A stretch of DNA of 64,000 nt from Deltaproteobacteria bacterium (GTDB lineage: Bacteria; Desulfobacterota; Dissulfuribacteria; Dissulfuribacterales; DYLC01). Positions 28,821 through 48,381 of this stretch are shown here, in pieces. The position numbers were made by a program, and so were the translations under genes. Location of the stretch: contig JAQVIJ010000001.1 in NCBI GenBank assembly GCA_028695735.1, positions 423,081-487,080 on the forward strand, read 5' to 3'. The notes beneath the pieces were generated by a model. That model was not told where the DNA came from and made no database searches. It worked only from the letters and a program-made list of their open reading frames with translations. Position 1 is the stretch's first letter; every line of letters begins with the position of its first letter.

Positions 28821-28836
28821 TGGCACGAAGCTTGCT
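28821..28836 (+). promoter_or_regulatory. Sigma-54 promoter P1
   Basis: TGGCACGAAGCTTGCT is an exact match to the -24/-12 consensus TGGCACG-N4-TTGCW, including the preceding pyrimidine. GG and GC are ten bases apart, as sigma-54 needs. Expected start of transcription is near 28847. There is no coding sequence downstream before a terminator. Confidence 0.8.
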
Positions 28837-28846
28837 TTATATAAAA

Positions 28847-28919
28847 TCAAACAGCACACACAACTTCATAACCCTCCTCTCCCTCCTAACCCTTCTGGCG
28901 CAAGTCAGAAGGGTTTTTT
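28847..28919 (+). ncRNA. Candidate sigma-54-dependent small RNA 1 (about 73 nt)
   Basis: A unit from the predicted P1 start to the U-run of a Rho-independent terminator. It has no start codon or plausible frame. The 5' part is unstructured and CU-rich, with CATAACCCTCCTCTCCCTCC; the 3' hairpin has loop GCGCAAGT. Unit 2, 390 bases downstream, shares the promoter type, GCTTTATAT after the -12 element, ACTTCATAAC, CCCTCCTCTCC and the terminator. The CCUCC runs equal the anti-Shine-Dalgarno sequence, which suggests pairing with ribosome sites of target mRNAs (inference). I do not recognise it as a known RNA family. Confidence 0.62.
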
Positions 28920-29023: not shown

Positions 29024-29077
29024 TGCATTTCGCTGTATGCAAAAACTGCAAACAGTGCATTTTTTGCATGATGCAAA
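29024..29077. promoter_or_regulatory. TGCA half-site array, candidate enhancer for a sigma-54 activator
   Basis: Six TGCA tetramers start at 29024, 29038, 29047, 29056, 29065 and 29072, four of them spaced exactly nine bases. The last pair forms a perfect 7+1+7 palindrome TTTGCATGATGCAAA at 29063-29077, which contains TTGCA-N3-TGCAA, the form reported for LuxO sites; NtrC sites also use TGCA-type arms. The array lies about 135-185 bases upstream of promoter P2, a normal enhancer distance, and between the two promoters. The likely binder is the NtrC-family protein encoded next door (inference). Confidence 0.5.
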
Positions 29078-29209: not shown

Positions 29210-29225
29210 TGGCACAACTATTGCT
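29210..29225 (+). promoter_or_regulatory. Sigma-54 promoter P2
   Basis: TGGCACAACTATTGCT matches the -24/-12 consensus with one change (A for G at the last base of TGGCACG). Spacing between GG and GC is ten bases. Expected start near 29236. Alignment with P1 continues through GCTTTATAT. Confidence 0.76.
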
Positions 29226-29235
29226 TTATATATTA

Positions 29236-29318
29236 TCAACCAAGACAAACTTCATAACTCTCCCTAACCCTCCTCTCCATGAAGCCCCTTCTGATGCAAG
29301 TCAGAAGGGGCTTTTTTT
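29236..29318 (+). ncRNA. Candidate sigma-54-dependent small RNA 2 (about 83 nt)
   Basis: Homologous to unit 1. From the predicted P2 start it reads through ACTTCATAACTCTCCC and AACCCTCCTCTCC to a terminator with the same stem core CCCTTCTG/CAGAAGGG and loop ending GCAAGT. It has one ATG in the body but no frame of useful length. It ends 27 bases from the stop codon of the convergent sigma-54 regulator gene. Differences from unit 1 are concentrated in the stretch between the shared blocks, as expected of duplicated regulatory RNAs that have diverged. Confidence 0.62.
29282..29318 (+). terminator. Rho-independent terminator of small RNA 2
   Basis: Stem AAGCCCCTTCTG / CAGAAGGGGCTT with loop ATGCAAGT followed by seven T. 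On the minus strand it lacks a T-run, so it probably does not serve the regulator gene. Confidence 0.87.
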
Positions 29319-29344
29319 ATCCCATGGAAATACAAGGACAAAAA

Positions 29345-30718
29345 TCACCCCTGATCCAGGTTATACTGTTTGAGTTTGTATTGCAGGGTGCGAAGTGATA
29401 TGCCCAATATCTCCGATGTTTTACGCCTGTGTCCACCGGTGGACCTCAATGCATTCTGAATGGCGGCCTTTTCCATGGCGTCAAGGGTTGTAAGAGGCAG
29501 AGGCAACCCTTCCTGTAATGTGGCAGGCTGCACATCCTGCTGCCCGGCTGTCATCTCCCGGCCCTGCAAATGGGGCAGCACCAGACCATCCATGCCCAGA
29601 ATCACCGCCCTTTCCAGGACGTTGTGCAGCTCTCTGACGTTTCCAGGCCAGGAATAGGCGGCCAGGCTCTGCAATTGTTCGTTGGTCAACTGCATGTTTT
29701 TCTTGCCTGTTTTGGCGCAGATCACCTGCACCAGATAGGGGGCGAGTTTCTCCACAGCGCCGGGCCGCTGCCTGAGGGGTGGAATGGTGACAGGAAATAC
29801 GCTCAAACGATAATAGAGGTCTTCCCTGAACCGTTTCTCCCTCATAAGGGCGAGGAGGTTCTGGTTGGTGGCGGCAAGCACGCGAGCCGAGGTGGTGATG
29901 GTGGTCATACCGCCCACTCGCTCGAAGGCCCTTTCCTGAAGCACCCGCAGAAGTTTTGACTGAAGGGCCGTGGCCATCTCTCCGATCTCGTCCAGAAAAA
30001 TCGTGCCCTGGCTGGCCAGCTCGAATTTTCCTTGTTTGGTCTTGATGGCGCCTGTAAATGCCCCTTTTTCATGGCCGAACAGCTCGGATTCTATGAGATT
30101 TTCCGGCATGGCAGCGCAGTTTATCTCTACGAACGGCCCCTTTCTCTCGCTCAACTTATGGATATATTTAGCGATAAGGGTCTTGCCCGTGCCGCTTTCC
30201 CCCAGCAAAAGCACCGTGGCATCGGTCTGAGCCACCTGACGGATTTCATACTGTATGTGCTCCATGCCTGCAAACAGGATATCAGGCCCAGGAATGCCGT
30301 CTGCAAGCTGCTTCTGCCAAAGGCTGTTAGCGGCCAGAAGGGATTGGCGCTCCAGAATACGGGCGACTGACAGCCGAATCTCATCGGGGTCCTTAAGGGG
30401 TTTGATGAGATAATCTATGGCGCCTTCCTTCATGGCCTGAACCGCTGTTTCCACTGTAGCAAAGGCTGTGATGAGAATGAAATCCATCTCAGGCCGCCTG
30501 GAGCGAATCTGATGCATGACGTCTATGCCGCTCATGTCCGGCAATTTAAGGTCGGTTATGACCACATTTGGTGAAAAATCCTCACACCCGCGCACAGCAT
30601 CCTTGCCGCAGTACACCGTCTGCACCTCATGCCCTGCCTGCTGAAGGATACGCTGCAAAAGGGTGGCAAAGGTCTTTTCATCATCCACCACCAGTATCCG
30701 GGCCTTTTCCTGTTCCAT
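29345..30718 (-). CDS. Sigma-54-dependent response regulator, NtrC family
   Basis: A 457-residue transcription activator. Receiver domain 1-120 with Asp12/Asp13, phospho-acceptor Asp56 (ITDLKLPDMSG) and Lys106; AAA+ domain at about 145-385 with Walker A GESGTGKT (173-180), the sigma-54 contact loop GAFTGA (219-224) and Walker B FLDEIGE; C-terminal Fis-type helix-turn-helix (HRRKTSEILGISLRTLQYKL). All activating residues are present. No histidine kinase is adjacent, so the signal is unknown. It converges on the two sigma-54 small RNA units and is the natural candidate to control them (inference from context). The ribosome site is weak. Confidence 0.93.
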   Translation of the reverse strand: MEQEKARILVVDDEKTFATLLQRILQQAGHEVQTVYCGKDAVRGCEDFSPNVVITDLKLPDMSGIDVMHQIRSRRPEMDFILITAFATVETAVQAMKEGAIDYLIKPLKDPDEIRLSVARILERQSLLAANSLWQKQLADGIPGPDILFAGMEHIQYEIRQVAQTDATVLLLGESGTGKTLIAKYIHKLSERKGPFVEINCAAMPENLIESELFGHEKGAFTGAIKTKQGKFELASQGTIFLDEIGEMATALQSKLLRVLQERAFERVGGMTTITTSARVLAATNQNLLALMREKRFREDLYYRLSVFPVTIPPLRQRPGAVEKLAPYLVQVICAKTGKKNMQLTNEQLQSLAAYSWPGNVRELHNVLERAVILGMDGLVLPHLQGREMTAGQQDVQPATLQEGLPLPLTTLDAMEKAAIQNALRSTGGHRRKTSEILGISLRTLQYKLKQYNLDQG

Positions 30719-48212: not shown

Positions 48213-48311
48213 AGGGGTCATTGCTGTTACTCTCACCCCCCAATCCCAAAATTCAAGGTTGCATTTTCCACTTGTTTTTTTCGCAGGTTTCATTTAGATT
48301 CAAGATTCATA

Positions 48312-48381
48312 TTGGCGATGGGGTTCGCCCTTAACCGCACCTGCTTTCATAAGCAGCGGCTAATGACTCCTATCCTTAAAA
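48312..48381 (+). promoter_or_regulatory. Fluoride riboswitch (crcB motif)
   Basis: The leader reads GGCGATGGGGTTCGCC, then TTAACCGC, a hairpin (CTGCTT...AAGCAG) and GCGGCTAATGACTCCTAT, which follows the conserved crcB-motif order GGCGAUGG-G-UUCGCC, AACCGC, GCGGCUGAUGACUCCU. Its 3' end shares bases with the 5' arm of the terminator that follows, so fluoride binding should block termination and turn on the downstream genes. One difference from the common form is CTAATGAC for CTGATGAC. Confidence 0.88.

Follow-up and report, generated by a model that had tools for sequence, protein, structure and literature searches.

The locus lies within a 64-kb stretch of DNA, which was analysed as a whole and is referred to here as the window. 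Between cobalamin genes located upstream of the region and prmA on its other side there are two tandem predicted small RNAs (R1 and R2), an array of TGCA tetramers separating them and the gene of a response regulator (REG), which converges on the R2 unit. The R1 unit starts with the sigma-54 promoter P1 (TGGCACGAAGCTTGCT, positions 28821–28836 of the plus strand), followed on the same strand by R1 at 28847–28919, with its start placed from the -12 element and its end from the terminator T-run. The array occupies positions 29024–29075 (neither it nor its parts being assigned to a strand). The R2 unit consists of the sigma-54 promoter P2 (TGGCACAACTATTGCT, 29210–29225, plus strand) and R2 at 29236–29318 (plus strand, inferred start), and REG is encoded at 29345–30718 on the minus strand. 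The two RNA units, mentioned in an earlier note on this DNA, and their sigma-54 promoters proved real as sequence. R2 and REG converge, with about 26 bp between the terminator of the former and the stop codon of the latter (29312–29345), and this proximity makes transcriptional interference or antisense effects possible. Elsewhere in the window, at 48305–48379, a fluoride riboswitch was found, scoring above the Rfam gathering score.

P1 and P2 (TGGCAC-N5-TTGCT) were the only strict matches to the sigma-54 consensus within the 64 kb, and both are conserved in the RNA family described below. R1 and R2, predicted on the basis of folding, alignments and cmsearch, are units of approximately 73–83 nt whose leader is unstructured and whose terminator is strong (folding z about -5). 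They have AACCCTCCTCTCC and the terminator stem in common, and the core AACCCUCCUCUCC is located at 28870–28882 in R1 and at 29266–29278 in R2, upstream of the terminator hairpin of the latter. A third copy was found 91 kb away in the same genome; upstream it has a sigma-54 promoter and a TGCA cluster of its own, and the sequence GTGCA(W)6TGCATGATG is common to this cluster and the array in the window. Downstream of the third copy lies a gene encoding a small protein named here YDENT, followed by a 5-formyltetrahydrofolate cyclo-ligase gene, the latter assigned by eye. Further matches to the core pattern in this genome, when inspected, had no sigma-54 promoter and were read as protein-coding sequence.

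A covariance model built on the three copies was used to search 46 genomes of the order, the genome of the window included, and 53 genomes of other orders of the phylum. The family was present in 41 of the former and in none (0/53) of the latter. The exact core pattern, searched for in 84,980 species, occurred almost exclusively in Deltaproteobacteria/Thermodesulfobacteriota MAGs, one of them labelled SeepSRB2. Neither search revealed an sRNA homologue outside the order; three odd matches to the core pattern (L093, L102 and L109) had no sigma-54 promoter or AT-rich dyad and were taken as chance. In the alignment of 49 copies, the core was near-invariant and compensatory changes were present at 11 of 14 terminator pairs, and the promoters of 44 out of 48 family members fitted TGGYAY-N5-NTGC. 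The core AACCCUCCUCUCC, the 3' terminator hairpin and the sigma-54 promoter thus characterize an order-specific sRNA family. No Rfam family matched the sRNA in the window or in the relatives, and a search of open-licence papers revealed no description of it for the order; the family appears to be undescribed and restricted to a single order of bacteria with sulfur metabolism. In about 17 relatives (L036, L037, L041, L043, L045, L047–L049, L052–L055, L060 and L063–L066), a second sigma-54-like promoter was noticed approximately 50–65 bp upstream of the sRNA promoter, which suggests a longer form of the sRNA or tandem promoters. In one genome (G008), a group II intron signature was located near the sRNA (L057:1712–1782, minus strand), and the REG ortholog of this genome was on another contig.

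The array comprises six TGCA tetramers starting at 29024, 29038, 29047, 29056, 29065 and 29072, with gaps of 14, 9, 9, 9 and 7, and the palindrome TTTGCATGATGCAAA located at its 3' end; both the four copies spaced by exactly nine bases and the terminal palindrome had been pointed out in the earlier note, and the coordinates agree with it. Two TGCA-N5-TGCA dyads can be distinguished, dyad 1 (TGCAAAAACTGCA, 29038–29050) and dyad 2 (TGCATTTTTTGCA, 29056–29068), with an overlapping element of the same geometry (TGCAAACAGTGCA, 29047–29059) between them. Dyad 2 is the closest to the conserved AT-rich form; with its context it reads GTGCATTTTTTGCATGATG, compared with GTGCAAAAAATGCATGATG at the third sRNA. 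The 3' part, TGCATGATGCA (29065–29075), is the LuxO-like N3 dyad of the earlier note. The array is the densest TGCA cluster within the window. Among 300 order-2 Markov shuffles, none contained six TGCA in an equal span or four at the exact spacing of nine; in shuffles preserving local composition, six TGCA occurred in 1 of 20,000 and the 9-9-9 chain in 0 of 20,000. The pattern TGCA-N5-TGCA-N(2-32)-TGCA-N5-TGCA had a single match in the 2.22-Mb genome, namely the array, and the reversed pattern used as a control gave no match in the same 2.22 Mb. A search for further regulon members with TGCA-W5-TGCA returned four sites in this genome, two at sRNA loci and two inside coding sequences, and the latter were rejected.

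The phylogenetic footprint covered 39 intergenic regions at orthologous sRNA loci from about 20 genera. These regions contained 260 TGCA (118.8 expected) and 86 pairs with a start distance of 9 (0.94 expected), the latter being present in 37 of 39 regions. As the regions come from related genomes and are not independent, fewer evolutionary events lie behind these counts than the figures suggest, yet they span some 20 genera. The exact N5 dyad was absent from two of the 39 loci (G003 and G041). Of 20 genomes searched for the double dyad, 18 had it at their sRNA locus, stray matches mostly having G+C-containing spacers, and the distance between the two dyads was typically 22–24 bp in the relatives and 18 bp in the window. 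The nine-base spacing is thereby supported as a conserved feature of the array by the kind of footprinting check that the earlier note had proposed. The proposal that TTGCA-N3-TGCAA is the recognition unit did not survive: the LuxO geometry, a start distance of 7, was seen in 5 pairs (1.1 expected), and the full form occurred only in the window, where its spacer is TGA/TCA and not W3. An N3 dyad of the LuxO type is rejected as functional unit by the spacing histogram, and the conserved spacing being N5, the array does not belong to the LuxO sites. Judged by the comparative evidence, the array is real and functionally conserved, and the TGCA motif is very probably a genuine and deeply conserved docking site of the sigma-54 activator encoded next to it.

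This neighbour, REG, was recognized as an NtrC/AtoC-type response regulator by its Pfam domains. It possesses a receiver domain, a sigma-54 AAA+ domain with the GAFTGA motif (read in the translation) and a Fis-type HTH. The best NCBIfam models all scored below their cut-offs: AtoC 440 bits (cut-off 714, the best match), NtrC 373 (558.6), LuxO 350.1 (800), ZraR 331 (760) and GlrR 298 (763). REG was not called LuxO because of the 350 bits obtained against the cut-off of 800 for the LuxO equivalog model NF041946. A single copy of REG was found in each of 42 of the 46 order genomes, with relatives 54–67% identical (53–66% in the comparisons of locus architecture); orthologs from the order scored at least 513 bits and the best matches from outside it at most 407. 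In nearly all resolved loci of the order, REG adjoins the sRNA. Among the order members inspected, none was seen to have a histidine kinase gene next to REG; in one outgroup genome (G054), a kinase gene lies directly upstream of the REG homologue. The rpoN gene was found in 10 of 10 genomes. Hfq (PF17209) was not detected in any of 12 order genomes (G000, G001, G004–G006, G008, G010, G012, G016, G018, G020 and G023), whereas control genomes gave matches.

In relatives with enough flanking sequence, the usual order was REG, sRNA, TGCA dyads and the YDENT gene, followed where inspected by the cyclo-ligase gene. In most order members, the dyads are located downstream of the sRNA and roughly 95–225 bp upstream of the YDENT promoter, which is of the sigma-54 type (GG-N10-GC) in 26 of 31 loci (0.7 expected). 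The arrangement in the window is atypical, with closely set dyads, a convergent REG and a locus split in two, so that the YDENT gene is 91 kb from the array. Other variants were a tandem repeat of sRNA-array-sRNA-array-sRNA (G006), an array between divergent sRNA and YDENT genes (G019) and an array between two sRNA copies (G040).

YDENT is a small predicted secreted protein with a GYDENTE motif and a membrane anchor or signal helix preceding a predicted OB-fold (pLDDT 80); Foldseek matches of the model include the OB-domain proteins LysRS and Stn1. It belongs to an undescribed family of predicted secreted OB-fold proteins (L003:2819–3283 and homologues), which displays the pattern GYDENTE...GSKFYG...RPVW, had no Pfam match and occurs in several classes of the phylum, most often next to regulators resembling REG. 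A cyclo-ligase gene recognized by eye follows YDENT at L003:3253–3843 and occupies an equivalent position in L067, L075 and L080–L083; in E. coli, the 5-formyltetrahydrofolate cyclo-ligase gene follows 6S RNA. The REG homologues that adjoin most YDENT homologues in other classes are 36–54% identical to REG over the available part. At several of these out-of-order loci there is a sigma-54 promoter together with two TGCA-N5 or N6 dyads spaced by about 22 bp; several outgroup REG homologues were found without dyads, and no sRNA was recognised at any out-of-order REG/YDENT locus. Since these loci have no recognisable sRNA, REG, the dyads and the OB-protein gene look like an older module, into which the sRNA was inserted in the order.

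The observed presence, significance, unique location and conservation of the array, the conserved promoters and the linkage of REG, sRNA, dyads and OB-protein gene are, taken as a whole, most probably explained by the array acting as a sigma-54 enhancer for the adjacent REG, common to P1 and P2. Tandem dyads near sigma-54 promoters, linked to a bacterial enhancer-binding protein with receiver, GAFTGA-containing AAA+ and HTH domains, are what characterizes sigma-54 upstream activating sequences, and both traits are present in the window and conserved in relatives. The binding unit would be the AT-rich dyad TGCA-N5-TGCA in two or more copies. Activated REG would bind the dyads, oligomerise and loop the DNA, driving open-complex formation by RNA polymerase-sigma54 at P1, about 200–250 bp upstream of the array, and at P2, about 135–185 bp downstream. 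The enhancer suggested in the earlier note is favoured by conservation, and its description as lying upstream of P2 gives only part of the picture, because the array is also downstream of R1 and, in most relatives, downstream of the sole sRNA. From P2, the array lies upstream at a customary distance. For P1, and likewise for the lone sRNA promoter of most relatives, activation would come from a downstream position. Sigma-54 enhancers are able to act from downstream by looping. That one enhancer may serve two promoters is indicated by the position of the dyads in most relatives, between the sRNA and the sigma-54 promoter of the OB-protein gene.

The products would be two short Hfq-independent sRNAs, in which the single-stranded C-rich core AACCCUCCUCUCC may mimic the anti-Shine-Dalgarno sequence. 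Such sRNAs would probably act as translational repressors of mRNAs whose GGAGG ribosome-binding site is strong, an idea drawn from the core sequence itself. No single target with long complementarity to the sRNA was found in nine genomes. The search for a recurrent target with a strong Shine-Dalgarno sequence (GAGGAGGGT near ATG) returned scattered genes without recurrence, among them, as assigned by eye, nuoA and a galT-like gene in the genome of the window and ftsZ in another genome.

In most relatives, the dyads have the normal upstream distance only to the OB-protein promoter, and for this reason they may serve mainly that gene, with the sRNA activated weakly or differently. Taken further, they would be an enhancer of the OB-protein gene only, beside which the sRNA was inserted, and the array in the window would be a relic of the locus split. 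This is in line with the dyads lying 95–225 bp before the OB-protein promoter and past the sRNA in most order members, and with their occurrence before an operon for the OB-fold or secreted protein in other classes, where the sRNA is missing. It is nevertheless unlikely: the array flanked by R1 and R2 surpasses every other in its genome even though the OB-protein gene is 91 kb away, the array was duplicated along with the sRNA in G006 and stands between two sRNA copies in G040, and the sRNA promoters, being sigma-54-type in 44 of 48 cases, need some enhancer.

Binding of the array by a protein other than REG is still less probable. Such a TGCA-recognising regulator could be a repressor or a paralogue resembling LuxO or NtrC. 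Paralogues of the NtrC family abound in these genomes, and LuxO (PMC10162802) and NtrC (PMC4987338) likewise use TGCA half-sites; however, the dyad spacing of 9 is unlike that of LuxO (7) and NtrC (13), and REG alone has a conserved one-to-one link with the dyads across the order and partly outside it. It is highly improbable that the array works at the RNA level, by forming a palindromic hairpin once read-through transcription includes it. Palindromic dyads can form hairpins and Rfam gave chance-level miRNA-precursor matches on two arrays, but a terminator separates R1 from the array, the dyads of G019 are upstream of both divergent genes and hence in neither transcript, and the DNA motif is kept while its position relative to the RNAs varies. 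A chance build-up of TGCA in AT-rich intergenic DNA, for which nothing but the AT-richness of the region speaks, is refuted by the shuffles, the uniqueness in the genome and the footprint, and its probability is negligible.

The proposed enhancer of REG can be compared with several known systems. In LuxO-Qrr of Vibrionaceae, LuxO recognizes TTGCAW3TGCAA and qrr1 adjoins luxO (PMC11443567, PMC10162802, PMC10328515). Both circuits have a group I sigma-54 response regulator beside an sRNA gene, several sibling sRNAs with sigma-54 promoters and TGCA half-sites with an AT spacer, often with two sites close by. They differ in the half-site spacing (N5 here, N3 for LuxO), in the LuxO score of REG, which is below the cut-off, and in the position of the enhancer, which here mostly follows the sRNA and is held in common with the OB-fold protein gene. 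The sRNA is unrelated in sequence to Qrr, and with no match to Rfam sequence and structure models and no Hfq detected in the 12 order genomes it does not qualify as a Qrr. The circuit probably resembles LuxO/Qrr through convergence.

The NtrC enhancer, TGCACC(A/T)4TGGTGCA (PMC4987338), also has TGCA half-sites with an AT-rich centre near sigma-54 promoters and is bound by a protein of the same family, but its half-sites start 13 bases apart and not 9, REG is below the NtrC cut-off and the linked genes are not nitrogen genes; the TGCACC-N-GGTGCA form with spacing 13 was not what the array displayed. As in the enterobacterial GlrR-GlmY/GlmZ system, an NtrC-family regulator would drive sibling sRNAs from sigma-54 promoters, whereas the GlrR site is TGTC-N10-GACA, the sRNAs and gene context are different and REG is below the GlrR cut-off. 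In site spacing, regulator cut-off or sRNA sequence, the circuit matches none of LuxO-Qrr, GlrR-GlmY/GlmZ and NtrC. With ZraR/AtoC-type regulators REG shares the domain layout, AtoC being its best NCBIfam model, although it scores below both cut-offs. ZraR-ZraP, a regulator linked to a small secreted protein, is a loose parallel to REG-YDENT, with the difference that the linked secreted protein here is an OB-fold protein. C-rich anti-Shine-Dalgarno sRNAs are represented by the cuckoo RNAs of alphaproteobacteria and RsaE/RoxS of Firmicutes. They share with the present family an unpaired CCUCC-type motif that can base-pair with ribosome-binding sites, and differ from it in that the latter has no Rfam match, a sigma-54 promoter and a distribution limited to one order.

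TGCA-N5-TGCA is a candidate DNA recognition code for the regulator clade of REG, a clade tied to an undescribed sRNA family present almost throughout one order. The tight conservation over about 20 genera makes the binding site and the sRNA core easily testable, and the shared, often downstream enhancer would allow the position-independence of natural sigma-54 enhancers to be tested. Methane-oxidising archaea have SEEP-SRB2 as a group of syntrophic partners, and this label is borne by one of the records with the locus. SEEP-SRB2 belongs to Dissulfuribacteraceae (PMC11747844), and the order is thus probably Dissulfuribacterales. Tentatively, a sulfur-metabolising order lacking Hfq may have independently evolved a LuxO/Qrr-like circuit composed of a response regulator, an anti-Shine-Dalgarno sRNA and a mainly downstream enhancer that also drives a secreted OB-fold protein. 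The circuit would then parallel the LuxO/Qrr design while having arisen independently, in bacteria in which Hfq was not detected, and one signal would repress the translation of many mRNAs and induce an envelope factor.
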